Positions 35,593 through 61,764 of a stretch of DNA of 64,000 nt are shown here, one piece after another (within the stretch, counting starts at the first letter, position 1; each line of letters starts with the position of its first letter). The DNA comes from Frankia sp. R82. Its GTDB lineage: Bacteria; Actinomycetota; Actinomycetes; Frankiales; Frankiaceae. Location of the stretch: assembly GCF_023716925.1 (NCBI RefSeq), contig NZ_JAMQQG010000043.1, positions 1 through 64,000 on the forward strand. The letters are read 5' to 3'. Both the position numbers and the translations under genes were made by a program. The notes beneath the pieces were generated by a model. The model made no database searches. It was given only the letters and a program-made list of their open reading frames with translations, and had not been told where the DNA came from.

Positions 35593-36246
35593 GTGAGTGA
35601 AACCCTGGAATCCCCAGTGGAGTTTCCGGCCGTCCCCCCCCTCGACCCGGAAATCGGGTCCAACGCGCGCCCGCGCGCACGCGAGGCTAACACGCCCCTT
35701 CCGGGCCCCGAGAAGGGGTGGCGACCAGAGTTTCCGGCATGGTTTCTGGCCACTCTCGGTGACTATCGGGAGGTGTGGGAGACCGCCCCCACCCCTGCAA
35801 ACGATCTTCTTCGGTACTCGACCGAAGGCGCTTGGACCTACCCCTACGCGATCAAGCTCCGGAAGATCCACTGGTGGTACACCTGCGCCATCGCCATCCC
35901 AGCCACCGCCATCGCCTACCCGCTCGCGCTGACCGTCCAGCACCTCGCCGGGCTCCACGCCGAGCGCGAGCCGCGCGCCGAACCGCTCACCGGCGGATCG
36001 AAAGTCGGCCAGGCCGTGCTCGACCGGGTTGGCCAGATCCCCGAGCCACCGGCCCTCGTCGACGTCTGGCACGAGGTCCAAGACGACGTCGCGACCCGTG
36101 AGGGTGCGGGCGCCCGGTTGGCGTGGTGGATCGGAGCCGCCACCACCGCCGTGACCGCTCTGCTGTACGGCATCGCCTGGCTGGTTCAGCGGCCTGGCAG
36201 GCTCCTGACCTGCACATCCATCGCCCTAGCTGTCCAGCTCACCTGA
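35593..36246 (+). CDS. membrane protein of the transfer cluster, unknown
   Basis: GTG 35593, 2 bases after the preceding stop; 217 residues. WYTCAIAIPATAIAYPLALT (about 97-116) and WWIGAATTAVTALLYGIAWL (about 177-196) are membrane spans; the N-terminus is Pro-rich and cytoplasmic. Position between DUF2637 and FtsK-type genes suggests a transfer accessory. Confidence 0.65.
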   Translation: MSETLESPVEFPAVPPLDPEIGSNARPRAREANTPLPGPEKGWRPEFPAWFLATLGDYREVWETAPTPANDLLRYSTEGAWTYPYAIKLRKIHWWYTCAIAIPATAIAYPLALTVQHLAGLHAEREPRAEPLTGGSKVGQAVLDRVGQIPEPPALVDVWHEVQDDVATREGAGARLAWWIGAATTAVTALLYGIAWLVQRPGRLLTCTSIALAVQLT

Positions 36247-36260
36247 GAGGAGGTGACACC

Positions 36261-37265: not shown

Positions 37266-37346
37266 TCTGCCTGTTTCTGTCGGGCCCGAGGCAGCCTCGG
37301 ACCCGGCGGTGACCGCCAGACCACCGCAGCCTGAGAGGAGCACGCC

Positions 37347-39455: not shown

Positions 39456-39490
39456 CCAATTCCGACCCTGACCGAACTGGAGGAACAACT

Positions 39491-39715
39491 ATGAAGATCA
39501 CCCGAATCGACTTCGGTGAGGACGAAGAACCGTCCGAGATCACCGTGCGTCTGTCTCCCGTAGCGGCAGCCCGGATTACGAAGTGGGCCGGCAGCCTCTC
39601 GCCAGCGGAGGGCGGAACCGAAGAGCTGTCGAAGGTCTACGACGTTCTCGACAGCTTCTTCAACCGGTTCTGGGAGGGCGGCGCGGACGAGGTGCTGCAG
39701 GGAGGGCCGCGGTGA
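39491..39715 (+). CDS. unknown 74-residue acidic protein
   Basis: ATG after GGAGGAACAACT. MKITRIDFGEDEEPSEITVR then LSPVAAARITKWAGSLSPAE. Small mixed fold. GTG overlap links it to the next gene. Confidence 0.6.
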   Translation: MKITRIDFGEDEEPSEITVRLSPVAAARITKWAGSLSPAEGGTEELSKVYDVLDSFFNRFWEGGADEVLQGGPR

Positions 39716-39933
39716 AGGCCCGGCAGATCATCTGGCTCGGCACCACCGGCCGGGCCGGCGGCGCGACCTTCTCGATATCCCTGTACAGGGCGAATACCTA
39801 CCGCGTCAGGGCCAACGTCGAACCGATCCAGCGTGACCTGGGGTCCCAGTTCCCGTCGCAGGAGGAGGCGCAAGCCGCCTGCCAGCAGGCGCTCGACGTG
39901 TTCGTCGCCGAGCTGGTGGACGCCGCCCAGTGA
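39712..39933 (+). CDS. unknown 73-residue protein
   Basis: GTG 39712. VKARQIIWLGTTGRAGGATF, SISLYRANTYRVRANVEPIQ: beta-rich then a helical C-terminus. Unknown. Confidence 0.6.
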   Translation: MKARQIIWLGTTGRAGGATFSISLYRANTYRVRANVEPIQRDLGSQFPSQEEAQAACQQALDVFVAELVDAAQ

Positions 39934-39988
39934 CCGCGGCAGCAGTGCCCCGCCCGATGCCCATCCCGACAACACGGAGTTAACGATC

Positions 39989-40405
39989 ATGCCCATTGCG
40001 ATGCCCCGCACACCCACCGTCACCATCAGCCGAGGTGGCAGCAGATCCGCCATCTACATCGAGCCCGAGCTGGCCCGGGCCGCCGATCCCGAGCTGGACC
40101 GGCTGATCCGCGCAGAGGAGAAGCTCGGCCGGAAACGGAACCTGCGACAAGGCCAGGACCGGAAGGTCGACGAGCTGTACCGGCAGATGCACGCACGCCA
40201 CGCCGAGGTGCAGAACCTGCTTGCCCGCGAGGTCATCGTCGGCCTGGTCGGGCAAGTCGACGGCGACAAGGCGCATCTCGCCATGATCGCACAGGGGGCT
40301 GTGTTCGACCGGCATGCCTGTGACGGGCACTGCTCCTGCTCGCCTGCGGTCATGGTCCCGGGCCTGCTACGGGGCGGGCGGACGGTCACGGTGCTGGTCA
40401 AGTGA
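39989..40405 (+). CDS. unknown 138-residue protein
   Basis: ATG 39989 after ACACGGAGTTAACGATC. The basic helical middle (AEEKLGRKRNLRQGQDRKVD) is followed by FDRHACDGHCSCSPAVMVPG, a CxxxCxC site. Overlaps the next GTG by 4 bases. Confidence 0.6.
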   Translation: MPIAMPRTPTVTISRGGSRSAIYIEPELARAADPELDRLIRAEEKLGRKRNLRQGQDRKVDELYRQMHARHAEVQNLLAREVIVGLVGQVDGDKAHLAMIAQGAVFDRHACDGHCSCSPAVMVPGLLRGGRTVTVLVK

Positions 40406-40968
40406 AGACCCGCAGCGCATCCGACCTGGGCTGGCGGTCGGCGACCAGCCTCGACGACCTCGGCGAGCTGACCGCACGCTGGCTCCTCGGCGACATCCCC
40501 GCCATCCCCGGCCAGGCCGGCCGCCCCGACCTCGAAACAGCCGAGATCCGCGACGCGCTCGTCACCCTCAACCGTGGCGGCCTGGTCACGACCATGTCCC
40601 AGCCGCAGGCGGCGGGGACCGGATGGCGGCAGCGCGCCGCCGTTACCGGGCTGGCGTCCGCGGACGTCGCGCGGCGTCTGGAGACGGCCTGCAGACGGGC
40701 CGGGCTCGGGGTCGGCGTCGTATCGCCCGGAGAGCGTCATCGATGGCACCGCGACAGCTCCAGGGCTGCCACCGTCGGTGAGATCCGAGGCTCAGTGTCC
40801 GTACTGGTCGGGGCGGTCGAGTCGACCCACGCCTTGCGGCTGCTGTGGGGCCCCCATCTGTCTCGCAGTGGGCTGGCCGTGGTGCTCGGCGCGTGCGAGG
40901 TGTTCGCCTACGACCCGGAGTGGACCCGCAGCGGCCTGCTGTGGGACACGCTCACCCGCGCTATCTGA
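40402..40968 (+). CDS. DUF6919 family protein
   Basis: GTG 40402; 188 residues. DLGWRSATSLDDLGELTARW, GDIPAIPGQAGRPDLETAEI, LNRGGLVTTMSQPQAAGTGW and VFAYDPEWTRSGLLWDTL match DUF6919, found widely in actinobacterial phages and plasmids. Function unknown. Confidence 0.75.
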   Translation: MKTRSASDLGWRSATSLDDLGELTARWLLGDIPAIPGQAGRPDLETAEIRDALVTLNRGGLVTTMSQPQAAGTGWRQRAAVTGLASADVARRLETACRRAGLGVGVVSPGERHRWHRDSSRAATVGEIRGSVSVLVGAVESTHALRLLWGPHLSRSGLAVVLGACEVFAYDPEWTRSGLLWDTLTRAI

Positions 40969-41053
40969 CCATGCCGGTGTGGCGTCCCGCCTGCCAAGAA
41001 GAGCCGCCACACCGGCACCACCCCAACCCCCTGATGGGAGAAGGAGCAACACC

Positions 41054-42042: not shown

Positions 42043-42375
42043 TCAGACGGTCGGCTCGCCCGGGGTCTCCGGGGCCGGCTCCGGCTCGGGGGTCGGCTCC
42101 TCGGTCGGCGGGTGGGCGACCGCGTCGAGCTTCGAGACGAAGTCGTCGAGCGCGGTGAAGTCCAGATCGGCACCAGCCGCGGCGGCCTGGTCCTTCAGCG
42201 TCTGGATCTCGGCCTTGACGGTGTCGAGATCCTCGGTCAGCGCGCCGACGACAGCGTTGATGTGGTCCTGGTTCGCGGACATGCGACGGTCCTCTCGTTG
42301 CATCTGGTGGATGGTGTGTTGCAGGTCCTGGACCTCCCTGCGGGTGGCCCAGGGGATCAGCCGGGGCAGGCGCAT
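42043..42375 (-). CDS. coiled-coil protein of the lysis cluster
   Basis: 110 residues. A basic start (MRLPRLIPWATRREVQDLQH) leads into a long coiled coil (INAVVGALTEDLDTVKAEIQ, TLKDQAAAAG) and an acidic Pro/Glu tail. Start overlaps the previous gene by one base. Such proteins accompany holins in actinophages; function unproven. Confidence 0.6.
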   Translation of the reverse strand: MRLPRLIPWATRREVQDLQHTIHQMQREDRRMSANQDHINAVVGALTEDLDTVKAEIQTLKDQAAAAGADLDFTALDDFVSKLDAVAHPPTEEPTPEPEPAPETPGEPTV

Positions 42376-42788
42376 CAGTACGCCGCCCGGGTGTCGGGGT
42401 CAGCCGCGAGCGCGGCCCGGGGGGTGACCTCGGACCGGTGACCGAGACCGAGCGTCGCGGCGACCAGGGCGAGGATCGCCGCGTCCGCCCCCGGCGGCAG
42501 GTCCAGCCCGCACAGCACGGCCAGCGGCAGCAGCGCCTGGAGGGCACCCCAGACCAGCGCGGGCCGGGACGGCGCGGTGGCCCAGCCTGCGACGGCGGCG
42601 AGAATCGCGGCGGTCGCGGCGAGGATGACCGTCTGGGTGCCGGGGGTGAGAGTGTCCGGCCACCAGTAGGCAGCGAGCGCGACGGCGGCGGAGAGAACAG
42701 CCTGCGCGCTGGCGGTGAGCGCGGCGGGTTCCCGGCGGGGCAGCGGCAGGACAGCCGTCGCAGGGGCGGTGGTCAGCAGGTAGGGCAC
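42375..42788 (-). CDS. holin-like membrane protein
   Basis: 137 residues with several hydrophobic spans: SAQAVLSAAVALAAYWW, TVILAATAAILAAVAGWA, LVWGALQALLPLAVLCGL and ILALVAATLGLG. Position directly after the peptidase and amidase fits a holin or holin-like role, forming membrane lesions for lysis. Assignment rests on topology and context. Confidence 0.6.
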   Translation of the reverse strand: MPYLLTTAPATAVLPLPRREPAALTASAQAVLSAAVALAAYWWPDTLTPGTQTVILAATAAILAAVAGWATAPSRPALVWGALQALLPLAVLCGLDLPPGADAAILALVAATLGLGHRSEVTPRAALAADPDTRAAY

Positions 42789-42791
42789 GGG

Positions 42792-43709
42792 TCAGCCTCC
42801 GGTCGTGGGGCGTGCGGCGAGCCAGGCGGAGGCCGCGGGGATGAGGGTGCGGAGCGCGTCGGCGAGCGCCCGACCGTCGTCGTCGGCAGGAGTCGGCGCG
42901 GGCGGAACAGGTACGGGGGCGGGTGTGACCGTGGGGAACGGCCGGCCGGTCAGCTCCTGGTAGTCCGCGGCGAGCGCCGCCAGATCCACCCCGGCCTGGA
43001 ACACAGCCGAGCCGAGATGCTCCGGCCAGATGACCACCCAGGCTTCCTGGAGCTGACGGCGCCGGAACGCCGCGGTGGTCGAAACCCGTTCGGCCCAGGT
43101 GATGACGTCGTCCCGGCCCGCCCGGTACGCCCCGGCGAGCACCGCATGGCCGCCCCACTCGCCCGACCTGCGGTAGTCCCACACCGGCGGATGCGCATCG
43201 GTCTGCGCCTGCTGCGCCACCTCGAGGTCGACACCCCAGAGGATTCCGCCGAACAGGCTGATCGCCGCGTCCAGCTCGTCGTCGTTGCCGACGTCGACCT
43301 GCGCGAACGCCAGCGACTGGACGCCGCCAATGCCGCCGGCCTGGACGGCCTGGAGCATCGTCTGCATCTCGACGCCGTTGTCGTCGGCGCCGGTCGCCGG
43401 GTCGAACCCAGGGTTCCCGCTGCGCCGGTAGAGGTCGAACACGTCGTCCTGGCTGGGCGCCTGCATGGTGCCGGTCAGCCCTGCGGTGACGACCCTGCGC
43501 AGGTTCGCCACCGACGTGGGCCCGCAGTCGCCGTACCGGTCGTTGGCGTACAGCCCGTACTCGAGGTGGCCGAGATGGTCAGCTGCGCTCGGGTGGGCGG
43601 GCACGACACCGGTCAGGTACCGGCCGATCCGCAGCGCCGCGCGCCTGGTCGGGGGCCGCAGGCCGGTCTTGCGGGTCGGATGGGCGTGGATACCGACGGC
43701 CGAGGTCAT
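42792..43709 (-). CDS. papain-like cysteine peptidase of the phage lysis cluster
   Basis: 305 residues. DCGPTSVANL (Cys62) and GEWGGHAVLAGAY (His188) form a Cys/His pair as in C39/papain-like phage peptidases; a WAERVSTTAAF region follows. A Pro/Ala linker and helical C-terminus complete it. Actinophages carry similar proteins near lysins. It may cut peptide cross-links in the wall or a host protein. Start overlaps the amidase stop. Confidence 0.75.
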   Translation of the reverse strand: MTSAVGIHAHPTRKTGLRPPTRRAALRIGRYLTGVVPAHPSAADHLGHLEYGLYANDRYGDCGPTSVANLRRVVTAGLTGTMQAPSQDDVFDLYRRSGNPGFDPATGADDNGVEMQTMLQAVQAGGIGGVQSLAFAQVDVGNDDELDAAISLFGGILWGVDLEVAQQAQTDAHPPVWDYRRSGEWGGHAVLAGAYRAGRDDVITWAERVSTTAAFRRRQLQEAWVVIWPEHLGSAVFQAGVDLAALAADYQELTGRPFPTVTPAPVPVPPAPTPADDDGRALADALRTLIPAASAWLAARPTTGG

Positions 43710-44635
43710 GCAGTGGCTCCGGGAGGCGTAGGGGCGAGGAGGGATGCGGCGTGGCCGGCGGCGGCCTGCGCCAGGCGGACGGCATCGAGGGCGTCGAGGC
43801 GGCCGACGGCGTCGAGTAGCTGGTCGAGGGTGGGCTCTGCCGGCGAGGCCATGGCGAGGATCGCGGCGGCCGGATGCTGCTGGTCGACCATCGTGGACAT
43901 GGCCTCACGGACTGCGGCCATGTCCGAGCCGAGCGCGGCGAGATGGGCCTGGAGATCGCCAGCCTTGAGGTAGGTGGCGCCGATGGTCTGCCCGGCGCTG
44001 CCCTGCCGGATCGGATGCTGCGGGTCGGCCGCCGTGCCGACGTCGGTCCACAGCTCCGCGCGGACCCGGCTCGACACGGCGGCGGCGATGGAGCTGATAT
44101 CGGCGTCGGTGAGCACATCTGCCTCCGGTGCTGGGGGGGTGAGGATGGCCACGGCGGCGGCGAGGATGTTCGCCCGCCGGCCGGCGCGGATCGGCCCGGG
44201 GCATTCGTGGCCGCCCCAGGCGGCACCGCCCATCTGATGGGTGCCGAGACCACGGCCGCCGGGCGAGTCGGCGAGCTCGAGCGGCCAGCCGAACTCGCGG
44301 ACACCCCAGGCGTACAACGCGCCGAGCGCGCCGACCTGCTCTGGAGTCAGGTCCTCGTCCGGGTGGCCCTCGGTCTCGACCGAGACCCAGTACGGGTTAC
44401 CTGCTTCCTGCGCCCACGCTCGCTGGTCCAGCGGGACGAACTGCTCGACGTCACCGGCCCGCGACACCCACAGATGGGAGCTGACCTGGCTGGCCGGATT
44501 GTCGAACCAGCCGAACGGCGAGCCGGTGCCGACCTGGACGTGGACGATCAGGCCCCGCGTCGGCCCGGCGATCACCCCGCTGCGGTTGCGGACGGGCCGG
44601 TACCTGGCCGGCGGGTAGAGCACGGGGGCGGTCAT
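43706..44635 (-). CDS. N-acetylmuramoyl-L-alanine amidase (endolysin)
   Basis: 309 residues. Amidase_2/PGRP fold at 1-165: GLIVHVQVGTG (His32), VSSHLWVSRAGDVEQFVPLD, YWVSVETEGHPDEDLTPEQV, GLGTHQMGGAAWGGHECPGP (His133, His143, Cys145). Zinc-dependent cleavage of the MurNAc-Ala bond lyses the host wall. The C-terminal half (180-300) is helical and may bind the wall or assemble with the coiled-coil partner. Overlaps the next upstream gene by 4 bases. Intact. Confidence 0.9.
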   Translation of the reverse strand: MTAPVLYPPARYRPVRNRSGVIAGPTRGLIVHVQVGTGSPFGWFDNPASQVSSHLWVSRAGDVEQFVPLDQRAWAQEAGNPYWVSVETEGHPDEDLTPEQVGALGALYAWGVREFGWPLELADSPGGRGLGTHQMGGAAWGGHECPGPIRAGRRANILAAAVAILTPPAPEADVLTDADISSIAAAVSSRVRAELWTDVGTAADPQHPIRQGSAGQTIGATYLKAGDLQAHLAALGSDMAAVREAMSTMVDQQHPAAAILAMASPAEPTLDQLLDAVGRLDALDAVRLAQAAAGHAASLLAPTPPGATA

Positions 44636-45285: not shown

Positions 45286-46791
45286 TCATTTGCCGAACAG
45301 CTGCCGGTAGAGCGCTGCCGCTTTCGGGAACTGCGTCGGCGCGGTCACCTGAAACGCTCCACCAAGGTTGAAATACGATTCATACACGACGTTGTTCGCC
45401 GGATTGGCAAACACGTCATGCATCCGCTGGATGTAGATCGCGTCATCGCCGGAACCGTTCGCCGAGCCGAACCCGGGGCCGGCGTTCAGCCCCCACTCGG
45501 GGAACGCCAGCGGCAGACCCTGAGCTTTCGCGTAGGCTATCCACGCGCCGATCCCGTACGGCGCCCCGCTGGACTCGACATCCATGTAATGGGCGTCCCA
45601 GGACTTCTGGTCGTGGATCGCCGGGTACATGTTGTACCAGTCGGTGGCGATCACATCGCAGTGGTCGGAGCCCGGGAAAACGGTCCGGACGTCGAACGGG
45701 AAGTCGGCGGACTTGTTCGGGTTCCACACGATCTGGAAGTCGTCGCTGACCCCTTTGAAGATTTCGTAGACGCGTCGGAATCCGGCCTTCCACGCGTCCG
45801 CGTTCGCCGGGGTGGCATGCCAGTAGAACCAGTCGCCGTTCATCTCCCAGCCGAGCCGGACGAACGCGTTCCCGAACCCCACATCCTTCAGGCCCTGTGC
45901 TATGGCCCGGAAATTGGCGTCGTTCGCGCCGCCCGCGGTCGTGGCCGCGGTCTCACCCTTCGCCCACAGCGCCTGCGAGAAGCTAAGCCGGCCGGTCCAC
46001 CGCCTGTTGAACGGTGCCGCCTTCTCGCCGGTGAAATAGGCGTGGACGGTGTCCAGGCGTTTCATCGTCGCCCAGTCAGCCTGAGCGTTCCAGGTCTCCC
46101 ACACCTCGACCGGACGCCCCCGCCAGGCGCCGAACGCGTACGGATCGGCCACCCCTGCGCCGCTCAGCCACGTGCCGCTGCCGGTCGTGCCTCCCCCGCC
46201 CGTGCCCGGATCTTGGCTGGGCGTGCCGGTGCCGTAGCACAGCACCTCCAACCCCTGCAGCGTCGCGGCGTTGACGACGGTGGTCAGCGCGACCGTCAGC
46301 CGGCCATCCGCGCCGACCGTCGCCGGCACCTCGCGGACGACTCCGCGGTACGGTCCGCCCGCGAGCGCCACCGGGTCCACCGCGCGCAGGGCACTGCTGC
46401 CCTGGACAGCGACATCGAACACCCGCATCCCGGGGCTGGTGTCCGCGGCGTAGGAGTCGGCGAGGTGCAGCCGGACCACGGCCGGGCCCGGGGGCAGACC
46501 GGTCAGGGTGTAGCCGAAGTCGCCCCACCGCTCGGTCTCCATGACCGCGTCGGCGCCGTAGTGGCCGGTGCCCTGCGCGCTGGCGGTGCCGCCGGAGTAG
46601 CCGCGGTCGGCCTCCCACGCGACCCCCGTCACGGTGACAGCCGGCCCGCCGCAGTTGAGCCGCACCACCCGAGTCGGAGTCGACACGGGCGGGTCCGGCT
46701 CGGGCTCGGCCGGCGGGGCCCACGGGTGCGCGGCCATCCACTCGGCCAGCGCGGCACCAGCCTGCGCGGCATAGTCCGACCAGGTGGTCAT
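45286..46791 (-). CDS. tail-associated glycosidase: malectin-like plus GH26 domains
   Basis: 501 residues. The N-terminal anchor (1-35) resembles the ends of tail proteins. A malectin-like carbohydrate-binding domain (about 41-186) has RVVRLNCGGPAVTVTGVAWE and ADRGYSGGTA. A GH26-type barrel (about 205-501) has acid/base Glu316 in VRLGWEMNGDWFYW and nucleophile Glu432 in LAFPEWGLNAG. GH26 enzymes cut beta-mannans and related beta-1,4 or 1,3/1,4 glucans, so this looks like a depolymerase for host surface polysaccharide. Downstream of the major tail protein, upstream of lysis genes. Confidence 0.85.
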   Translation of the reverse strand: MTTWSDYAAQAGAALAEWMAAHPWAPPAEPEPDPPVSTPTRVVRLNCGGPAVTVTGVAWEADRGYSGGTASAQGTGHYGADAVMETERWGDFGYTLTGLPPGPAVVRLHLADSYAADTSPGMRVFDVAVQGSSALRAVDPVALAGGPYRGVVREVPATVGADGRLTVALTTVVNAATLQGLEVLCYGTGTPSQDPGTGGGGTTGSGTWLSGAGVADPYAFGAWRGRPVEVWETWNAQADWATMKRLDTVHAYFTGEKAAPFNRRWTGRLSFSQALWAKGETAATTAGGANDANFRAIAQGLKDVGFGNAFVRLGWEMNGDWFYWHATPANADAWKAGFRRVYEIFKGVSDDFQIVWNPNKSADFPFDVRTVFPGSDHCDVIATDWYNMYPAIHDQKSWDAHYMDVESSGAPYGIGAWIAYAKAQGLPLAFPEWGLNAGPGFGSANGSGDDAIYIQRMHDVFANPANNVVYESYFNLGGAFQVTAPTQFPKAAALYRQLFGK

Positions 46792-47345: not shown

Positions 47346-47603
47346 ATGAGCGACAATCGATGCCCGAAATGCGGGCGTGACGATGACCTGCACGCCACCC
47401 TTTTCCACCTGGCGTTCGACGAACAGCAGGACCCCGAGCACACGCCCTGTGGGCGATCCGCCGAAGGCCTCGAGGCCGGATGCATGCGCCAGAAAGGCCA
47501 CACGGGGGGGTGTGTTCTTCCCGACCCCGACGGTGCGACGCCGCAGAACCCGTCAGGGTTGATGGAAATCGCCCATTGGGCGGTCAGTTCGCCAGCCGGG
47601 TAG
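47346..47603 (+). CDS. zinc-ribbon protein on the opposite strand of the tail module
   Basis: 85 residues: MSDNRCPKCGRDDDLHATLF, HTPCGRSAEGLEAGCMRQKG and HTGGCVLPDPDG. CPKC plus three Cys and several His suggests metal binding. TACTCTCCTCATG gives no strong ribosome site beyond TCTCCT on this strand, so a promoter inside the flanking gene is assumed. It overlaps the end of the 1438-residue gene by 20 bases. A moron-like gene is possible. Confidence 0.55.
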   Translation: MSDNRCPKCGRDDDLHATLFHLAFDEQQDPEHTPCGRSAEGLEAGCMRQKGHTGGCVLPDPDGATPQNPSGLMEIAHWAVSSPAG

Positions 47604-50600
47604 TGGAGCCCAGAATGCTGCGGCTGTCCCACTGGGTCGGGCTCGACTGGGAGGTCGCCCCGGCGGGCAGCTGCGACACGATCGTGTCCCCGGCGTTCAC
47701 CCCGAATCCGAGGGCGGTCACGGCCACGGTGAACGTGGTGTAGCCGGTGAACGTCGGGTTGACCGCGGTCACCGTCACCTGGCCGATGCGGGCGCCGGCC
47801 CGCCAGATGTCATAGGCGCCGGTCGCCCAGCTGGCCTGGGCCGGGTTGGTCAGCCGGTCGGGGAGGGCGGCGAGCACCAGGGAGGTGGAGCCGGCGCCGG
47901 CCCCGGCGCTGACCGTCGTGCGGGCGGCGGCTAGCTGCCAGTAGTCGACCAGCATCGGCGACATTTGCACATCGGTTTTCCACTCCTGGGTGCCACCGTG
48001 TTCGACGGTGATCTCCTCGGCGAGCGCGTCCACGTACCCGTCGTAGGTGATCGCGGGCGCGCCGATCGGCCGGTGCACGACCCGCTGCCGGTCGGAAATG
48101 TCGATGGTCAGCGCGACCGGGAACAGCACGCTCGGATTGGCCGACGGAATAAACGAGAACCCGGACATGCGCAGCCGCGGGTTTTTGTACAGGGACAGGT
48201 ACAGGTTGGTGCGGCCGGCCAGCTCGGAGTCGTCGCGGAGTTTCAGCGTGCCCGAGTAGGTGCGCGGCAGGTACATGTCGGCTGATGTTGTGTCGGTCGC
48301 AGACTGGGTGGGCCCGCCGTCACGGGTCAGGTTTACCGTGTTGTAGATATAGGTCGGGTCGAGATCGAATCCTAGGCCGTCCAGCTGGTAGGGGAGCCCG
48401 GCGATCCCGTCCCACAGGTTGACGGCCTGTGTCTGCGACGCCCGGTAGCTGCGCGCTTCGAACACGATGGTGCCGTCGGCCGCGGCGTACAGCTGGCCGG
48501 CCTCGGCGTCGGCCGTGTCTTGGCAGGCTCCCAGCGTCGACTGTCCGGCGAGGCCGGCGAGACCGAACCCGTTGCCCGAGCCGGCGTAGGAGTCGCCGGG
48601 CTGCACCGAGCGCATGGCTACCGGCCAACGGCCGTAGTTCAAGATCCGGTTGACACGCGCCCCGGTGCGCTCCAGGTCGTATCCGCCGTTGCGCCCGACA
48701 GCCCAGTGGGCCGCCACCCGATCTGCGGGCAGCTCGTAGTTGTAGAACGCCACATGGGAGACGAGGGTTTCGCAGAGATGCTGCGGTGAGGTCGTCGAAT
48801 ACCAGTCGCCGCCCAGGACCGCCGCAGTCGGTGTCGGCCCCAGATAGTTGGTCGATGCGAACTCCTCGCCGCCGTTGATGTAGAAATGTGACCGGCCGGT
48901 GGTGTCGAGGGTGATGCACAGGTAGATCGCGTTGATCTCGCCCGTTTTCGAGTCCTCCGGGTACCAGGTGCCCCCCGAGTTGTAGGCGATCGTGCCACCG
49001 GTCGCGAAGCTGATCTGGCCGTCGAAGTTACGGCTGATGATGATCTGATAGCCGGTTTTCAGGTTGGTGCCGGCGATCAGGTGGGAGAACAGCGGCGAGT
49101 TGGTGTCCGGGATGACATCCTGCTGAGGCTTGATCCACATTTCCATGGACCAGCCGGTGGCTTGCGACGGCACCATCCCGGGTGCTTTCGACAGGTCCAC
49201 GTAGTCGCAGGCCGTCAGCTGCCCGCCCGGGTTCAGATTCAGCGAGGACCCGCCGTCGAACACGACCGCCGCGCCCCCGAAGTCCGATTGGGCCCCGCCG
49301 TACTTCGACGGGGTGATCGGCGCGACGTCCGGCTGCACGATGTCCCCGGCCGCCTGGCTGGTCTGCTCCTCCACCATCGGAATGAAGGAGGCGGGGTTGT
49401 CGAGGCGCACCTCCTCCTCGTAGGTAGACCTCAGCTCACCCTGCGACAGCACCCCCGGCGAGTCGACGCAGGTGATCGTCGGAATGCTGAGTGCCGGGTC
49501 CTGCCAGGACAGCGGCCACCGCTCGACCACCCCGGCCCACCGCGGGTACACCACCCCGTTCCAGACCGCGCGGATCCGGACCGGCACGATCGGCCGAATG
49601 TTCGGGTAGTAGGGGCTGGCCGAGTTCCCGTAGGTGAACCGGCCGTCGGAGTTGTCCACCGCGATCGACGCGCTGCCTGCTTCGAACCTGCCTAGCTCGT
49701 ACTGACGGCTGCTCCGCTGCAGGCTGACTTTGCCCCGCACATAGCGGGTGATATCCGTCCACCGGCTGGTGGAGGTGTCCGCAGTCAGCGCCGCCGCATA
49801 ATGCCGCTCACCCGCGGCAGCGCCCGGGATGTCCACGTAGAAGAACGCGTAGGACGTCCCTGTGGGGGCAGGCGAGGTAACGGTGAGCGTGGTCCACCCG
49901 TTCGTGTTCGTCGTGATCGTCGTCCCGGACACCGTCGCAGTCCCACCACCGGCGAATTTCCAGTCGATTTTCAACGTGGATGCCCTGCCGGTCACAGCCG
50001 CCCGCAACTGCACCGTTGCCGTGTAGGAAACTCCCGAGAGTATCGATCCGACATCCGTCTGGATGCCTGCGAGCATCTCCCCGCCAGTGCCAGTGATCGC
50101 CACACTGTTGCGGTACGGCGCCGGTGCGACCCCCCGGGCCAGCCCAACAGTGCACGCCACGTAGGCCGCCCACTGGCCGATGGACCGCTGGCAGGTGGCG
50201 GTGTCCCCGTTGGACAGCGGCCAGGTGGTGGCCGCCCGGGCCGGCAGGCCGAACCCGGCTTCGACGATCAGCCGCGGCCAGGTCGCCGAGCCCGGCCCGC
50301 TGCCGCCACCCCCGGTGGTCGGCGTCAGGTTGAAGTTGTCGTAGACCGCGCTGCCTTGGTCTGCGAACCCGAGGCCGTAGTAGCCGGCGAGCAGACTGAC
50401 GCCGACCGCAGTGAGGGAGAACGTCGAGGCGGCGGTGCGCTGGGTGGTCCAGGTCAGACCGTCCGCGGACGTCGCCCAGGTGATCACCCCGGCGGCCTCG
50501 GTCATCCGCCACCAGCGGTGATCTGTCGTGCTGTAGGGGATGGAGACGTCGGACATGACACCGGCCGTCTTCAGCCGGAACACCAGAGCGAGCGCGCCGT

Positions 50601-51900
50601 CCTGCGTCTCGCAGACGGTTTCCACCGTGTTGGTGCTGTTCAGGGAGATCTGGACGGATGCCTGCCCGGTCCCGTTCGCAGGTCGGGTGCCGTTCGCATT
50701 CGCCAAAAAGTTGTTCTTGAACAGGCCGCCCCATGTGGTGGTCGTCGTGTAGTCGGCGGCCGTCATGGCGTTGTCGTCATACCAGTTGCCGAAGAGAAAA
50801 CCGGCAGCCCCGCAGAAGTTTGTCTGCGTCTGCATCTGCGCCGCGTAGAACGTGGCGGCTTGCCCGCCCCACGTCGGGTTGTCGGACAGGTTGCCGTTCT
50901 TCACACCGAATTCGGTTTCGATGATGATGTGGCGGCGGGAGGCACCCCCAGTTGCCGCCGTCCACCGCGCCCCGGAAAACGTCTGCCCGGTGGCGTCGTC
51001 GTCGTCCGGGTAGTCGTGCTTGGCGAAGGCGATGTTGGCCCGGCCCGTGCCGGTCAGCGTCGTATCCAGGTTTTCGAGATTCGTGAACCTGGTGTCGTCG
51101 TAGGCGTGGCTGTAGTTGTTCGAGTCGATGAGCAGCAGGCCCTTGTAGCCGATCGTCGACCGGTAGTAGGTGATGGTCGCTGCCATCGCCGTATACCAGT
51201 CGGCATCGGAAACACTGTTGGGCTCGTTGAACGGCTCATAAAACGTCCACGGGTCGTTCACCCCAACGGCGTTCGCCACCGCCGACATGAGGTCGAACGC
51301 ACGGTTGTAGTTCGTCGCCCAGGCGGCACCTTTGTAGGTCCCATCGAGCGCATCCCAATAGCAGAAACAAGTGAGAATGCCCTGTGCCTGCAGTGCGTCT
51401 CGCCAGCCGACAGCTTTCGCGACATAGGCGGCCCGGTCGGAGGAGGTGAGCCCATTCCAATAGTCGGCCCACAGGCGGATCCGCACGTAGGTGACACCCC
51501 AGGACCGCAAAGTGACGGCGATGCTGTTCCGCGCGGCGTACTGCTGGTCGCCGAGCGGGCTCGGGCCCACAATCGGGTCCTGAACACCCCACAGGCTGAT
51601 GCCGGCGAGTAGCATCCGCGGCCCGGTGAGACTGCCCTGGCGCAGCTGACTGGTCGTCGCGGTGACATCGGCCACCGGGGCTATCGCCGCATAGCCACCG
51701 GTGGGCACCCCGAGCACCTGCACGGCCACCCGGGACGAACGAAAATCCAGGGTGCTGGCAGTCTGCACATTGCCGTAGGAGGGAACACACTGGACGGTGA
51801 GAACCCCGCCGGCTTCGGTGGCGAACGCCGACGCCGTCCACGGGGGATTGCCGATTACACCGTCGTTGAAATCATCGGTGATGTCCCCGGTGAGCGCCAT
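47584..51900 (-). CDS. large minor tail protein carrying a GH5-type glycosidase and a laminin-G-like domain
   Basis: 1438 residues. A jelly-roll half (8-75) is interrupted by a GH5-like barrel (about 90-400): YVRIRLWADYWNG, TFYEPFNEPNSV with acid/base Glu226, and HIIIETEFGVKNG with the nucleophile Glu. The jelly-roll resumes near 410-520. A carbohydrate-binding-like region (540-720) and a phage tail siphovirus-type segment (RWTDITRYVRGKVSLQRSSR) follow. A laminin-G/concanavalin domain (about 910-1065) has WSMEMWIKPQQDVIPDTNSP. The C-terminus is tail-tip-like. It is a baseplate/tail-tip enzyme that digests surface polysaccharide. Confidence 0.85.
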   Translation of the reverse strand: MALTGDITDDFNDGVIGNPPWTASAFATEAGGVLTVQCVPSYGNVQTASTLDFRSSRVAVQVLGVPTGGYAAIAPVADVTATTSQLRQGSLTGPRMLLAGISLWGVQDPIVGPSPLGDQQYAARNSIAVTLRSWGVTYVRIRLWADYWNGLTSSDRAAYVAKAVGWRDALQAQGILTCFCYWDALDGTYKGAAWATNYNRAFDLMSAVANAVGVNDPWTFYEPFNEPNSVSDADWYTAMAATITYYRSTIGYKGLLLIDSNNYSHAYDDTRFTNLENLDTTLTGTGRANIAFAKHDYPDDDDATGQTFSGARWTAATGGASRRHIIIETEFGVKNGNLSDNPTWGGQAATFYAAQMQTQTNFCGAAGFLFGNWYDDNAMTAADYTTTTTWGGLFKNNFLANANGTRPANGTGQASVQISLNSTNTVETVCETQDGALALVFRLKTAGVMSDVSIPYSTTDHRWWRMTEAAGVITWATSADGLTWTTQRTAASTFSLTAVGVSLLAGYYGLGFADQGSAVYDNFNLTPTTGGGGSGPGSATWPRLIVEAGFGLPARAATTWPLSNGDTATCQRSIGQWAAYVACTVGLARGVAPAPYRNSVAITGTGGEMLAGIQTDVGSILSGVSYTATVQLRAAVTGRASTLKIDWKFAGGGTATVSGTTITTNTNGWTTLTVTSPAPTGTSYAFFYVDIPGAAAGERHYAAALTADTSTSRWTDITRYVRGKVSLQRSSRQYELGRFEAGSASIAVDNSDGRFTYGNSASPYYPNIRPIVPVRIRAVWNGVVYPRWAGVVERWPLSWQDPALSIPTITCVDSPGVLSQGELRSTYEEEVRLDNPASFIPMVEEQTSQAAGDIVQPDVAPITPSKYGGAQSDFGGAAVVFDGGSSLNLNPGGQLTACDYVDLSKAPGMVPSQATGWSMEMWIKPQQDVIPDTNSPLFSHLIAGTNLKTGYQIIISRNFDGQISFATGGTIAYNSGGTWYPEDSKTGEINAIYLCITLDTTGRSHFYINGGEEFASTNYLGPTPTAAVLGGDWYSTTSPQHLCETLVSHVAFYNYELPADRVAAHWAVGRNGGYDLERTGARVNRILNYGRWPVAMRSVQPGDSYAGSGNGFGLAGLAGQSTLGACQDTADAEAGQLYAAADGTIVFEARSYRASQTQAVNLWDGIAGLPYQLDGLGFDLDPTYIYNTVNLTRDGGPTQSATDTTSADMYLPRTYSGTLKLRDDSELAGRTNLYLSLYKNPRLRMSGFSFIPSANPSVLFPVALTIDISDRQRVVHRPIGAPAITYDGYVDALAEEITVEHGGTQEWKTDVQMSPMLVDYWQLAAARTTVSAGAGAGSTSLVLAALPDRLTNPAQASWATGAYDIWRAGARIGQVTVTAVNPTFTGYTTFTVAVTALGFGVNAGDTIVSQLPAGATSQSSPTQWDSRSILGSTTRLAN

Positions 51901-51936: not shown

Positions 51937-54474
51937 TCAGGCTGCGCCGAGAGCGCGCTGGCCCTGGCCGGCGGCGGAAAGACCATTGGTCAAGTTCCGT
52001 CGCTCGCTTTGCAACGCCTGGGTCTGCACAGCGCGGAACACCTCGCGGCCGTCGATCTGAACGACGATGTCCGCCGGCTTGCCGGCCGGCTGCCCTCCGG
52101 CAGATGCGGCGAGATTCCCCGCCCAGCTGGCAGCGGCGCCCGCCCAGCTGGTAGCGGCCGGACCGAACGCGCCCGGGGTGAGCCGGCCGGTGAGCTGGCC
52201 CATCGCCGCGTCAACCGTGCCCATCTGCCCGCCGATACCCTGGGCGAGTAGCCGCACAATAGACTGGCCAGAATAGAAGGGGTTTCCTCGACCGGAAAGC
52301 GGGCCTTCCTTTGCCGGGCTGAAAGGTAGATAGCCTTTTATTTTTGACACGATCGAGTGCATCGTGTCGCCAATTTTCCCGGCTGCATGCTTCAGTCCGT
52401 CAATCAGGCCTTGGATGATGTGCTCTCCTGCGTCGAACAGCCATCGTCCGGCGTCGGCGAACAGGCCGCCGATCACCCCTGGAATGCGTCCTACCCAGCT
52501 GGACGCGGCGGTCCAGCCGTTCTGGAGACCACCGAGCAGCCCGCGGAGCACCCGGACGCCTGCGTCGAACAGCCATTGCGCGGCGTTCAGGAAAAACCCG
52601 AGGATCATCAGCGGTAGGCCGACATACCAGAATACGATAATATTCCAATACATCTTGATCCCCCAAAGCAGGCCCTCGAGGATTTTTCCACCAGCCTCCT
52701 TGAGGAGCTCCGGCGCTTTCCCGAAAAAGCCGAGGATCTGCCCTGGGAGTTCCTGAAAGAAGTGACCTACGGCCTTGGCCGCATTACCCACCCATTGCAG
52801 CGCTCCATGTACAAGATTGCGGAATCTCTGCGAGTGGGTGTAGGCCAGGATGAAAGCTCCGACGAGCAGGCCGAGAACGAGTAGCAGTGCACCTAAGGGG
52901 TTGGCAGCGAGAAAAGCGGAGAATGCGGTGAACGCGGTGCGCACAATGCTGATCCCACGGGAGATCAGGCTGAATGCGCCGCCTACCCGGCGGATAGCGT
53001 CCCGTAGGCTCATGAGGATCCGCACGCCCGGGGTCATGCGGGCGATGAAACCGGCGAGCGCCTGAAAGCCGCGGGCGAAGCTCAGAAGTCGGGAGACGTT
53101 CCAGAGGGCTCGGGCATCCCGCAGGCCCTGAATGAGTAGCCGAAGGGCGTTTCGTGTCCCGAGGATCGGGGACACGAAACGGTGGAAAATCATGAAGCCG
53201 GCGGCGAGCACTCCCAGCGTCCGGGTATGGGCAGAAATCTGGCCGCCGGCGCCGCCGAGTGTCGGGCCAAGCACGTGGGCGAGCACCCACACGAATGCGT
53301 TGACAGCAGGCAGAACAATCGCCCCTACGACCTTCGCGAAAAACAGCAGAACCGGAATGATGATCTGCGAGAAGACCTGACCCATGGCCCGGTTGAACGG
53401 CGCGATCTGCTGGAAAAATTCGATCAGATTCCGGAAGATCGGCCCAAGCTGTTGTCGCAGCGTGTCCAGCCCTTTACCGAGGCCTTCGATTCCGGAGTTA
53501 CCCGCCGCGTCCCCGAACGCCCCCGCCGAACGCGAAGCAGCGAGGAAAACCCGGCCGATATCGGTGAGAATGGGCCACAGGTGCTGAGAGAACAGCACCC
53601 ACAGGGCCTTCGCTTCCTGCTCCTGCGCCCAGGCGGCGGCAACCTGCTGGGCGGCCTCGAGCGCGCCGTCGTCAGGCGGCGACGGGAACTTCGGCTCGGG
53701 CCCGCGGCAGTTCGTGCCGTAGGAACAGAACGTCCGGCAGAAGAAGTAGTCCTCGTCGCGGATCTCCCACTTGTCGATCGCACGGCGAATCTCGGTGATC
53801 TTATCGTCCGTGCTTTCCGCGCCGAACCGGTCGAGGATGCCGGCCATCTCGGTGGCCCGCGCCCGCTCGGTGGCAACCCGGTCCGCGGCCTCGTCGGCAA
53901 TCTTCTGGTCGAACGGCTCGGAAAACTCCCATGCGTCCTCGAAATCGCCGTCGCGGGGAACGAACACCAAGCCGACGGTATGGATGTCGTAGCCCGCCTC
54001 GCGGAGTGCGGCGCCGGCGAGATGCACCTGGGCGCGGTAGCCCCGGCCGATCCCGTCCTTCTTCAGGCGGGCGATCTTCGAGAGGCGAGGGAACTTCCAG
54101 TCGACCACCCGGCCAGCCAGGATGAAACCGAGGTCGATTGTGCAGGCCACCTTCCGGTACACCGCCCGGAACTCGACCAGCAGCCGGAAACGGTCCGGAA
54201 GGCGGCGCAGCGCCGCCTCAGCAGCCGCGTGGGCCGCCTTCCCCATCCACGAGTCCGCCCGCAGCCGCGGGTCCGACTCGGGTATGCGGAGCAGCCGCCA
54301 CAGCGACTCGGCCCGGCAACCCATCGCCTGCGACGCCCCGGTCTCCACCTGCAGAGCCCGCGGGTCGGAGGCTTCCATCTCCGATATCGCCAGCTGCAGC
54401 AGGCCCAGCCCGGTCAGCTCCTCGACGTCCGGCGCGTCCTGCCCGCCGGCCGGACGCTCGTCCAGCGTGGTCAT
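51937..54474 (-). CDS. in-frame fusion: Cas4-like exonuclease joined to tape-measure protein C-terminus
   Basis: 845 residues from ATG 54474, which overlaps the upstream stop. Residues 1-285 are a PD-(D/E)XK exonuclease of Cas4/RecB type: Asp114 in CTIDLGF, Asp125/Lys127 in VVDWKF, Gln149 in YRAQVHLAG, and Cys52, 246, 250, 256 for an Fe-S cluster. From about residue 290 (ALWVLFSQHLWPILTDIGRV) it is the membrane-like, Gly-rich C-terminal part of a tape-measure protein, ending before the tail gene. Neither half normally contains the other. The junction is near 53610. A deletion that removed the head and early tail genes best explains it. Nuclease activity is possible; tape-measure length is too short. 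Confidence 0.85.
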   Translation of the reverse strand: MTTLDERPAGGQDAPDVEELTGLGLLQLAISEMEASDPRALQVETGASQAMGCRAESLWRLLRIPESDPRLRADSWMGKAAHAAAEAALRRLPDRFRLLVEFRAVYRKVACTIDLGFILAGRVVDWKFPRLSKIARLKKDGIGRGYRAQVHLAGAALREAGYDIHTVGLVFVPRDGDFEDAWEFSEPFDQKIADEAADRVATERARATEMAGILDRFGAESTDDKITEIRRAIDKWEIRDEDYFFCRTFCSYGTNCRGPEPKFPSPPDDGALEAAQQVAAAWAQEQEAKALWVLFSQHLWPILTDIGRVFLAASRSAGAFGDAAGNSGIEGLGKGLDTLRQQLGPIFRNLIEFFQQIAPFNRAMGQVFSQIIIPVLLFFAKVVGAIVLPAVNAFVWVLAHVLGPTLGGAGGQISAHTRTLGVLAAGFMIFHRFVSPILGTRNALRLLIQGLRDARALWNVSRLLSFARGFQALAGFIARMTPGVRILMSLRDAIRRVGGAFSLISRGISIVRTAFTAFSAFLAANPLGALLLVLGLLVGAFILAYTHSQRFRNLVHGALQWVGNAAKAVGHFFQELPGQILGFFGKAPELLKEAGGKILEGLLWGIKMYWNIIVFWYVGLPLMILGFFLNAAQWLFDAGVRVLRGLLGGLQNGWTAASSWVGRIPGVIGGLFADAGRWLFDAGEHIIQGLIDGLKHAAGKIGDTMHSIVSKIKGYLPFSPAKEGPLSGRGNPFYSGQSIVRLLAQGIGGQMGTVDAAMGQLTGRLTPGAFGPAATSWAGAAASWAGNLAASAGGQPAGKPADIVVQIDGREVFRAVQTQALQSERRNLTNGLSAAGQGQRALGAA

Positions 54475-55544
54475 GACGACCACCGCCCGCCACCGGATGC
54501 GGCAGTCACGGACTTCGCCAGCGACTGGCAAAGCGTGAGCTGCTTCGACAGAACCTTCGACCGGTCCTCGATGTAGGCGAGCGCCAGCTTGCAGCGGCGA
54601 ACATCCTCCCGCTCGGCGGCAGTCGCAAGATCAGCCTTCGCCTTCTGCCGGTACTCAGGCAGCAGGCGAGCGCCGGTAGCCTCGCACTCGGCGGCATAGC
54701 GGTCGAAGAAAGCGGCGTAGGCGCGGAGACGGATCTCCTCTGCTTCCGACAGCGCCTCCATCGCGGCCCGCTTGTAGGCGGCGACGTCTTCCAGCCGGGC
54801 GGCGATACGGAGCTGTTCGGCGTCGACCTGTTCGGGGTTGCAGTTCTGCTCGTTCAGCGCGAACCGGGAGCGGATCTCCCGGATTCGGGACGGGATCGTG
54901 TCGAGGATCCGGCCTCGGGACTCCGGGTCGGCGTTCAGCATCGCCGGTGGAATCTCAAGGTCGGCATCCGGAGACGCGTCGGCCGGCTGGCCAGCGTGTT
55001 GTGTCTGCTGTTGGCCCTTGGCCGCCTGCACGCGCTGCCGTCCCAGCTCGTAGCGGATCTGCATGAGGATCTTCCCGAGATGGTTCTGGCCCTCGGCGGC
55101 GCAGGCGGGACGGCCGCAAAAGCAGTCCCCCCATACGTTGTCGTGCCAGGTGTTGCCCTCGACGAGCAGCCGGTCGCCGGTCTCGACGAGCAGGTTTGCG
55201 AGATGGGGGTTGGTGAACTTGGCGCGGACGGCTTCGGTCATCACCTGATGGCGAATCTCGTCCCAACCGTCCCGGATCTGTACCTTCCTACCTCGGGCCT
55301 TCGCTTCGGTGGGGGTGGGAGCGGACAGCACCCACTCGCGCTGCCGGGCGTCGACGGTCTTCATGCACTGGAAGGCGTGCTCAACCGTCGGGTATGTGCG
55401 GCCACCCCAGGTGAAGGGTGCGCGGGCAAAGTTCGACAGAAAGCCGAGCGTGCCTTTGAACTCCTCGATGGCGACTGGATGCCAGTGACCGTCGGGGGCG
55501 AGGACCGAGCCGTTGCGGATCTCACCGATCGTCGGCGCGGTCAT
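54471..55544 (-). CDS. NADAR-domain protein with helical C-terminal extension
   Basis: 357 residues. NADAR (YbiA/DUF1768) domain at about 22-172: GTLGFLSNFARAPFTWGGRT, YPTVEHAFQCMKTVDARQRE, GDRLLVEGNTWHDNVWGDCF, GQNHLGKILMQIRYELGR. NADAR proteins act on ADP-ribose chemistry; some (DarG1-like) remove ADP-ribose from guanine in nucleic acid. The C-terminal 170 residues are helical (PSRIREIRSRFALNEQNCNP, SKVLSKQLTLCQSLAKSV) and unknown. Position between exonuclease and RecA-fold ATPase suggests a DNA-protection role in infection. Overlaps both neighbours. Confidence 0.88.
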   Translation of the reverse strand: MTAPTIGEIRNGSVLAPDGHWHPVAIEEFKGTLGFLSNFARAPFTWGGRTYPTVEHAFQCMKTVDARQREWVLSAPTPTEAKARGRKVQIRDGWDEIRHQVMTEAVRAKFTNPHLANLLVETGDRLLVEGNTWHDNVWGDCFCGRPACAAEGQNHLGKILMQIRYELGRQRVQAAKGQQQTQHAGQPADASPDADLEIPPAMLNADPESRGRILDTIPSRIREIRSRFALNEQNCNPEQVDAEQLRIAARLEDVAAYKRAAMEALSEAEEIRLRAYAAFFDRYAAECEATGARLLPEYRQKAKADLATAAEREDVRRCKLALAYIEDRSKVLSKQLTLCQSLAKSVTAASGGGRWSS

Positions 55545-56935
55545 GCCGCCACCGGCTGCCGGCTCACGGTCTTCAGGTGCTCGGCGAACCGCTGCAGCAG
55601 ACCGACTGTCGCGTCACGAAGCAGCGACCCGCCCGACCACTTCTCGTAGGCGGCGGTGAGCGCCGCGAAGTCCAGCGTCCCGTCCGGCTGGGCGAAGCCC
55701 GCTCGGATGGCAGCCTGGGTGACATCCCGACGCCGGGCCTCCAAGTCGTCCGGAGCCGGCTCTGGCAGAGGCGCGTTGGCCGCCGGCGCGGGTGGGATGC
55801 TGGCCAGGTCGCCGCTGATCCCGTTCATGTTGGCCGGGGTCTGGACGGAGTTCGGCACCGGCGCAGGCGTCTGCTGCTGCTCGGCCGCCCGACCGGTAGC
55901 GATGGCCGGCGGCGAGGAGATCTCGTTGCCCTTACGAATGATCAGCTTGCCGAGGGGGCCGATCTCGCCCGTCTCATCCATCACCGGCACGGCGAGCTTC
56001 CCTGTTTTCAGGGCATCGTCGTACAGCCGGCGGAGGTCTTCCTGGGTGGCGTTCTTGTCGAGTGCGCGGTCACGGAACTGGGCCGCTGATGGGTCCTCTC
56101 CACGCTCCTCGGCGGTCAGCTCGCCGCCGGTCGTGGCCTTGATGTCCCGGACATGCGCCTGCTCCGGGTCGCACCGCAACGCGGTGAAGATCAGCCATTC
56201 GAGGAGGTTCCGCTCTGCCTCGGCGGCCTTCACGTCCTTCGGCTCGTCGCGCCCCGGGCGGATACCGGCATGCACGGACCGCGCCCCGATGATCTGCGGC
56301 TTGCCGGATCGGGACATCCGGACCCACATCGTCGCGTCGTAGGCCAGCGTCTTGTGGCCCTCGACCCGATAGTCCTTTTGCCGTTCGATCGGCTTGCCGT
56401 TGTCGTCGAGGGCGGCGACTTCCTTCCCGCGGGCCAGCAGGATCACAATGCCCGGGAACGTCAGGAGCTCGGTCATCAGCCGCCGGTAGCGGGAACCCGA
56501 GTCGTTCCACAAGTCCATCGAGACCGTCACCTCGACGTCCGGGCCGAGCTTGCGGCGCTGCCGGGCCCGTTCCGACGCCCAGTTCTTCAGCCCCTCCCAC
56601 ACGTCCGAGATGGTGTCGATCACCAGGACGGTCGGGGGTTCCTGCGCGTCCGAGGCGCGGCGAGCCTCGGCCTTCACTGCGCGGACCTGGCCGAGGATGT
56701 CGAGGAACGTGCCGTCGTGCTCGATCACCTCGTAGCGGACCCCGGGGATCGCCCCGTACTCGTCGGCGGAACCTTCGCCGAGGTCGACCCAGAAGGTTCG
56801 GCCGACACGGGCCGATGCCGACAGCAGGGCCGCGGAGTACGACTTCCCGGATTTCTCCCCGCCTTCGACGAGGATCACCGGCCACGGCACCTGGCCGGTG
56901 GGCCGGCGGGAGCGGATCTGTGGTGCGACGGTCAT
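55541..56935 (-). CDS. RecA-fold ATPase, phage recombination type (Sak4-like)
   Basis: 464 residues. Walker A VEGGEKSGKSYSAALL (GGEKSGKS at 25-32) and Walker B PPTVLVIDTISDVWEGL; a glutamine-lysine rich ATPase core to about 235 (EGHKTLAYDATMWVRMSRSG). A Pro/Ala-rich C-terminal linker and a helical end (LDFAALTAAYEKWSGGSLLR) follow. Proteins of this kind in actinophages work with the neighbouring exonuclease in recombination or ssDNA annealing. The class is inferred from motif and context. Overlaps its neighbours by 4 bases. Confidence 0.8.
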   Translation of the reverse strand: MTVAPQIRSRRPTGQVPWPVILVEGGEKSGKSYSAALLSASARVGRTFWVDLGEGSADEYGAIPGVRYEVIEHDGTFLDILGQVRAVKAEARRASDAQEPPTVLVIDTISDVWEGLKNWASERARQRRKLGPDVEVTVSMDLWNDSGSRYRRLMTELLTFPGIVILLARGKEVAALDDNGKPIERQKDYRVEGHKTLAYDATMWVRMSRSGKPQIIGARSVHAGIRPGRDEPKDVKAAEAERNLLEWLIFTALRCDPEQAHVRDIKATTGGELTAEERGEDPSAAQFRDRALDKNATQEDLRRLYDDALKTGKLAVPVMDETGEIGPLGKLIIRKGNEISSPPAIATGRAAEQQQTPAPVPNSVQTPANMNGISGDLASIPPAPAANAPLPEPAPDDLEARRRDVTQAAIRAGFAQPDGTLDFAALTAAYEKWSGGSLLRDATVGLLQRFAEHLKTVSRQPVAA

Positions 56936-60032: not shown

Positions 60033-61738
60033 TTGATCCGCTTCGCGTTCTATGGCCGCGTCTCCACTGAGGATCAGCAGGACCCGGAATCCTCGTTGGG
60101 CTGGCAGCGCGGCCGCGCCACCGCCCTCATCGCCCCCCGCGATGGGCAGGTCGTCGCCGACTACTTCGACATCGGCCAGTCCAGATCGGTCCCCTGGCAG
60201 CGCCGCCCCCAGGCCGCCAACCTCCTCACTGCCCTTGCCGACCCCGACCGTGGCTTCGATGCGGTCGTGGTCGGGGAACCGCAGCGCGCCTTCTACGGTA
60301 ACCAGTTCGGTTTGACCTTCCCCGTCTTCGAGCACTACGGCGTCACCCTCTGGGTGCCTGAGGTCGGCGGCCCGATCGACCCCGGGAACGAAGCCCACGA
60401 CCTGATCATGTCCGTGTTCGGAGGCATGTCGAAAGGCGAGCGGATGCGGATCAAAGTCCGCGTCCGCTCGGCCATGGCCGCGCAGGCGCTGACCGAAGGC
60501 CGCTACCTCGGTGGCCGGCCACCCTACGGCTACCGCCTTGCCGACGCCGGCATCCATCCCAACCCAGCGAAGGCGGCCGACGGGAAACGTCTCCACGTCC
60601 TGGAACCCGACCCGGATACCAGCCCCGTGGTCGCCAGGATCTTCCGCCAGTTCCTCGAAGGGCAAGGTATTTTCGCCATCGCCGAGGGGCTGACCGCCGA
60701 CGGAATCCCCAGCCCCTCGGCCCACGACCGGACACGTAACACTCACCGCAGCGGGATCGCCTGGGGGAAAAGTGCCGTCCGGGTCATCCTCACCAACCCC
60801 CGCTACACCGGACGGCAGGTGTGGAACAAGCAGCGCAAGGACGAGGTCCTCCTCGACGTGAAAGACGTCGGCCAGGGCACACCACCAAGTTGCGGTGGAA
60901 CGGCAAAGACGACTGGATCTGGTCGGAGAAAATCGCTCACCCGCCGCTGGTCAACGACGACACCTTCCGGCAGGCCGGCGCCATCATCGCCTCACAGTCC
61001 CGAACCGCGGCGAACCCGCACACCCCACCCAGGCGGCGCCACCCCTACCAGCTGCGCGGGCTGATGCACTGCGCGATCTGCAGCCGGCGGATGCAGGGGT
61101 CGATGAACAACGGCCGGCCACACTACCGCTGCGGGTTCCCCGCCGAGTACGGAACTGCGAACGCGCTGAACCATCCCCGCAACGTGTACATCCGGGAAGA
61201 CCGGGTGGTGCCGAAGCTGGACCGGTGGGTGGCTACCGCGTTCGCCCCGAACCGGCTGGGCGCCACGATTCGGGCGATGCTCGGCGAGCAGGACCGTCCC
61301 GTGGATCTTCGGCAGGTGGAGGTGGCCCGGCAGGCCCGGGAGGCAATCGCCGACTGCGACCGCAAGCTGGCCCAGCATCGGGCTGCCCTGGAGGCGGGCG
61401 CGGACCCGGTGGTGGTGACGGGATGGATTGCCGAGACGCAGGCAGCGCGGGCGGCGGCGGTCAAACGGTCGAGCGTGACCGCTCCGACGATGCGGCCGAT
61501 GGCCGAGGAGGAGCTGGCTGCGCTGGTCGCCGAGCTTGGTGACATCGCGGTCGTCCTCGGCGATGCGGACCCCGCGGACAAGGCGCGGCTGTACGCACAG
61601 ATCGGATTGACGCTGATCTACGACCCCGGGTTGCGCCGGGTTGCGGCATCCGTGCAGCTGAACCATGGAGTTCAGAACGTGTCCGAGGGGGGACTTGAAC
61701 CCCCACGCCCGATAAAGGGCACTAGCACCTCAAGCTAG
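60033..61738 (+). pseudogene. large serine integrase of the element, split by a one-base frameshift
   Basis: TTG 60033 after AACGGAG. The 5' part encodes the resolvase domain RFAFYGRVSTEDQQDPESSL, GGMSKGERMRIKVRVRSAMA, GGRPPYGYRLADAG and NPRYTGRQVWNKQRKDEVLL, then breaks at GQG (about 60878). In the other frame the product continues HTTKLRWNGKDDWIWSEKIA, CAICSRRMQ...HYRC and the coiled coil. The intact relative at 7380 has one extra C here (GGCCAC versus GGCAC), so this copy lost a base. The gene runs on through the att core into the tRNA. It is probably inactive, so mobility would depend on the tandem recombinase or on sequence error. Confidence 0.9.
61675..61694 (+). repeat. right attachment core (attR) in tRNA-Leu
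   Basis: GAACGTGTCCGAGGGGGGAC, identical to 9024-9043. Bases 61680-61694 are the last part of the tRNA on the minus strand, so the 3' acceptor and T-arm end of the tRNA are within the core; integration keeps the tRNA whole. Confidence 0.9.
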
Positions 61739-61764
61739 CGCGTCTGCCATTCCGCCACCCGGAC
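61680..61764 (-). tRNA. tRNA-Leu (anticodon GAG)
   Basis: 85-base cloverleaf. The acceptor 5' GTCCGGG pairs with the 3' CTCGGAC region, with discriminator A. The anticodon stem CTAGC/GCTAG encloses TTGAGGT, anticodon GAG, reading CUC/CUU. A long variable arm (TGCCC...GGGC) is typical of class II Leu tRNA, and the T-arm is GGGGGTTCAAGTCCCCC. No CCA is encoded. Its 3' end is the insertion site of the element. Confidence 0.95.

Follow-up and report, generated by a model that had tools for sequence, protein, structure and literature searches.

A Cas4-like exonuclease joined in frame to the C-terminal part of a tape-measure protein in a Frankia prophage: a likely product of prophage decay

Described relatives of the locus

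The Cas4-family exonucleases of actinophages (PHROG 1674), including Gordonia phage Santhid gp38 and Rhodococcus phage REQ1 gp38, are proteins of 250-278 aa that stop shortly past their last cysteine. Siphophage tape-measure proteins (TMPs), including members of PHROG 305 and PHROG 58, Microbacterium phage Pickles13 gp21 and the prophage TMPs L020 and L036, have genes for minor tail proteins and lysis behind them. Grounded prophages have been described as highly prone to deletions (review, PMC6379469), and defective prophages of this kind, grounded or cryptic, that have lost internal segments form the third class of systems with which the present locus can be compared.

In this study, the window is a 64,000-nucleotide stretch of the draft genome of Frankia sp. 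R82, and it carries one open reading frame that resembles the first two systems in turn. The N-terminal half is 25-31% identical to the actinophage exonucleases and shares with them the invariant nuclease residues, the four cysteines and the position in an early operon. However, it does not end past the last cysteine but continues into a TMP, and the tyrosine of the QxxxY motif that is typical of these exonucleases is an alanine. The C-terminal half was aligned with the siphophage TMPs at 26-41% identity, and minor tail and lysis genes come next here as well. The surrounding element is like the grounded or cryptic prophages in its lost head and packaging block, its broken integrase and its retained early, tail and lysis genes. 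What differs from those prophages is that a deletion here would end in or at two genes with the frame kept, so that annotation would show one large hybrid protein.

Table 1. Features of the fusion and of the prophage around it (positions in the window).
Feature	Positions	Strand	Remarks
Holin	42375-42788	-	lysis module, PHROGs
PHROG 19005 protein	42792-43709	-	lysis module
Amidase/endolysin	43706-44635	-	lysis module, PHROGs
Lysis module	42375..44635	-	PHROGs; relatives in same order in L024
Minor tail protein after TMP	47584..51900	-	PHROG 5313; L024 relative
Tape-measure protein C-terminal part	51937..53591	-	residues 296-845; TMP PHROGs, without PhageMin_Tail
Junction bracket	53592..53649	-	residues 276-295; homology ends, GC3 change-point
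Cas4-like exonuclease part	53650..54474	-	residues 1-275; PHROG 1674, invariant residues, model
NADAR-domain protein	54471..55544	-	just upstream of fusion, coupled early gene; PF08719 7.5e-28
RecA-like AAA ATPase, early recombination gene	55541..56935	-	PF13479, PHROG 1366
Serine integrase, two frames	60033..61738	+	end lies inside tRNA-Leu 61679-61764 (-)

The two halves and their junction

The initial annotation had described positions 51937-54474 of the reverse strand as a Cas4-like exonuclease fused to the C-terminus of a TMP with the frame preserved across the join, and had proposed that each half be searched separately. The reading frame is indeed single and uninterrupted over all 845 codons. 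A mechanical search places its start upstream, at TTG 54531; we prefer ATG 54474 because it overlaps the stop codon of the NADAR gene in the ATGA style of the neighbouring operon genes. When the protein starting at this ATG was scanned whole with hmmscan, residues 24-226 were matched by the PHROG 1674 exonuclease profile (1e-27), whereas the region of about 297-816 drew matches from a number of TMP PHROGs (best 2.8e-31). When it was split, the N-terminal half matched exonuclease PHROGs only (PHROG 1674 over the nuclease domain, residues 24-228, 7.3e-29) and the C-terminal half TMP PHROGs only (PHROG 305, the best, 2.3e-32; PHROG 58, 4.3e-19). Each half thus matches its own family alone, which agrees with the fusion as first described. 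A structural model of the whole fusion, made from one sequence, reached a pLDDT of 42 and was set aside.

Judged by its sequence, the segment from residue 1 to about residue 275 is a complete actinophage Cas4-like PD-(D/E)XK exonuclease. The residues that are invariant among phage Cas4-like exonucleases are all kept (C53, H82, E101, D114, D125, K127, Q149 and C246), and C250 and C256 bring the number of cysteines to four. Alignment therefore upholds the earlier claim that the PD-(D/E)XK residues and the four cluster cysteines are present, the sole departure being the nearly invariant tyrosine of QxxxY (position 153), which is replaced by alanine. In an AlphaFold2 model of residues 1-300 built from 58 sequences, the nuclease core has a pLDDT above 90, and the top PDB matches of the model are LHK-Exo and lambda exonuclease, so that the predicted fold is lambda-exonuclease-like. 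A profile made from the exonuclease alignment found no meaningful match among PDB sequences. Curated Cas4 models were also unmatched: Pfam gave only PDDEXK_1, below its cut-off, and NCBIfam gave nothing. The term "Cas4-like" should therefore be taken as phage annotation practice and not as CRISPR Cas4, an identity that finds no support in these negative results or in the rank of Cas4 structures, which lies below that of the lambda-type exonucleases.

The segment from about residue 295 to residue 845 is, by its profile matches, the back half of a siphophage TMP from which the PhageMin_Tail domain is gone. It aligns with the later parts of TMPs of 727-1200 aa, and Pfam found no match to PF10145, the N-terminal PhageMin_Tail domain, in the fusion. 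A complete TMP would have an N-terminal region of the PhageMin_Tail type and would follow tail tube and chaperone genes; here that region is missing and the preceding genes encode the NADAR and RecA-like proteins. The one PF10145 match of the assembly belongs to a different TMP on another contig. This second TMP gene of the genome (L039/L040, G000:C221:24829-25437) has an open frame of 1469 aa.

The junction was located in two ways. The tail of the exonuclease resembles that of a gene in another genome of the family (L022) until about residue 275 (GPEPVPLPPPD vs GPEPKFPSPPDD), and the TMP alignments, which are weak (z of about 4), start at residue 295; the join is therefore bracketed to the residues between these two points. 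Codon composition provides an estimate that is independent of homology: GC3 is 0.894 up to residue 301 and 0.732 beyond it, a step that none of 2000 shuffles matched; the support interval of this change-point is 274-324. The junction at about position 53610 that was proposed at first lies inside the homology bracket.

The surrounding prophage

Scans with Pfam and PHROG profiles found no head, packaging or tail-tube genes in the element, so that essential genes have been lost between retained modules, as in a defective prophage. In the whole assembly, which is estimated to be 95% complete, the portal model PF04860 and the terminase model PF03237, the two that were used, had no match. A syntenic prophage in another genome of the family (L024/L032, on G024:C29) allows a comparison. 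Over about 900 aa, its tail gene after the TMP is 52% identical to that of the window, and the order of the lysis genes that come next is shared as well. Its TMP is whole, with 883 aa, and has the PhageMin_Tail domain in its N-terminal half, in the place of which the fusion has the exonuclease. Moreover, genes for neck, tail tube, head protease, minor head protein, portal and terminase precede the TMP of this relative, the distance from terminase to TMP being about 22 kb, whereas in the window the exonuclease, NADAR and RecA-like genes stand directly before the TMP half.

The integrase has its Resolvase and Recombinase domains in a first ORF and its zinc ribbon in a second ORF in another frame; the switch lies near 60880-60930 and could be a sequencing error. 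Because the integrase is split between two frames, the element is probably grounded. No duplicated end of the tRNA-Leu gene that could serve as a second att site was found in the window, and elsewhere in the genome this end has a single exact match, which belongs to another, complete tRNA-Leu gene.

The RecA-like ATPase is 49-57% identical to phage RecA-like recombinases. The NADAR protein scores above the cut-off of TIGR02464 (riboflavin-intermediate N-glycosidase) and is weakly like an anti-phage NADAR family, which makes it a candidate defence or counter-defence gene. On the other side of the fusion, the N-terminal stretch of the minor tail protein appears by eye to be like a glycoside hydrolase, with no Pfam support, and a gene downstream of it at 45286-46791 (-) combines malectin and GH26 domains; we suggest that both encode tail-linked glycan-degrading enzymes. 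To the left of the prophage, genes on the opposite strand at 36000-41000 (+) resemble by eye an actinomycete conjugative element, and include a Walker-A ATPase (37347-39455) and a DUF6919 protein (40402-40968), with no FtsK match in Pfam. We rejected the reading of the element as a tailocin or a satellite, since genes for a tail tube, a tail terminator and a chaperone are all missing from it.

Origin of the fusion

The explanation that we prefer (probability of about 0.8) is that a dying prophage underwent an internal deletion, with the frame kept by a one-in-three chance. The ancestral element would have run from the integrase through the early genes (HTH, RecA-like ATPase, NADAR and Cas4-like exonuclease) to a block that is now lost, and from there through the second half of the TMP to the minor tail proteins and the lysis genes. 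The lost block would have held the remaining early genes, the terminase, portal, capsid, neck and tail tube genes and the first half of the TMP. One internal deletion of about 20 kb or more may have taken it out, with one end just past the point where the functional residues of the exonuclease stop and the other inside the TMP gene, the match of frames across it being a matter of chance (prior of one in three). That the event was single, that it was of this size and that its product has no selected function are points that we infer. The two genes are normally far apart, as had been remarked at first, but this is unsurprising: the early and late modules lie on the same strand with the early one first, and one internal deletion therefore joins exonuclease and TMP.

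Recombination could also have brought the genes together. An illegitimate exchange between two phages or prophages, the product of which would be equally accidental, is in keeping with the mosaic nature of phage genomes and with the sharp GC3 difference across the join, which fits both this reading and a deletion equally. However, GC3 ranges from 0.70 to 0.94 across the rest of the element's genes, which makes a second source unnecessary, and the gene order on either side is that of a single prophage running from the integrase to the lysis genes. We therefore regard such an exchange as unlikely. An assembly chimera, in which the two genes would not be joined in the cell, seems still less probable. 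The genome is a draft of 370 contigs, but the join sits within a contig of 89.5 kb with collinear phage genes on both sides, and the 281 bases around it have no second copy in the genome, where the nearest other match covers 28 bases at 89%.

The initial annotation had left the choice between a chance deletion and a joined protein kept by selection. The first alternative gained support from the missing intervening genes, the broken integrase and the absence of a fused relative; the second found no positive support. A selected hybrid would be a nuclease with a tape-measure segment as its tether, kept for a host or phage function. The clean frame of 845 codons and the intact catalytic residues are expected of a kept protein as well, and we count them against the deletion; the intact nuclease core and the start codon, which is coupled to the preceding gene of an intact early operon, point the same way. 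However, the element lacks the tail tube, terminator and chaperone genes that could carry such a protein, its integrase is broken, the tyrosine of QxxxY is lost, and the fusion is a singleton across all phage, plasmid, viral-locus and family-genome searches.

A conserved fusion should recur in many independent genomes, and it did not in any of these searches. All 80 loci of exonuclease relatives in IMG/VR are unfused: the ORFs have 234-506 aa, and nothing in these loci resembles a TMP. Among the records that match either half, none of 476 from phages and none of three from plasmids reached at least 80% coverage of the fusion, and the joined pair is absent from the 34 other genomes of the family, where the few matches each extend over one half only. 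Peptide-pattern scans of viral and genome contigs confirmed no close relative of either half and yielded no intact parent, which we also count against the deletion. The 80 exonuclease loci contain no relatives of the RecA-like, NADAR or tail genes, and synteny of the early operon is therefore not shown in that way; pMLP1 and the part of MooMoo that was read have the RecA-like gene and no detectable relative of the exonuclease. Selection for the hybrid is thus very improbable in our judgement, and slimmer again is the chance that a membrane-active tape-measure segment serves as the anchor of a DNA exonuclease that selection maintains, perhaps for the breakdown of phage DNA as it enters through the membrane. 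After the deletion that we favour, the exonuclease half, if translated, would probably still fold as a nuclease, bearing a hydrophobic tail fragment unfit for tail assembly.

This case calls for caution, because automatic annotation would report a "Cas4-tape measure" protein of 845 aa at a place that is better read, on the evidence, as a scar of decay. The hybrid would acquire biological weight only if sibling strains show it under purifying selection. The fusion is likely to reflect the ordinary decay of a prophage, not the birth of a two-part protein, in an element from which the head and packaging block is gone and in which the early and lysis modules survive.
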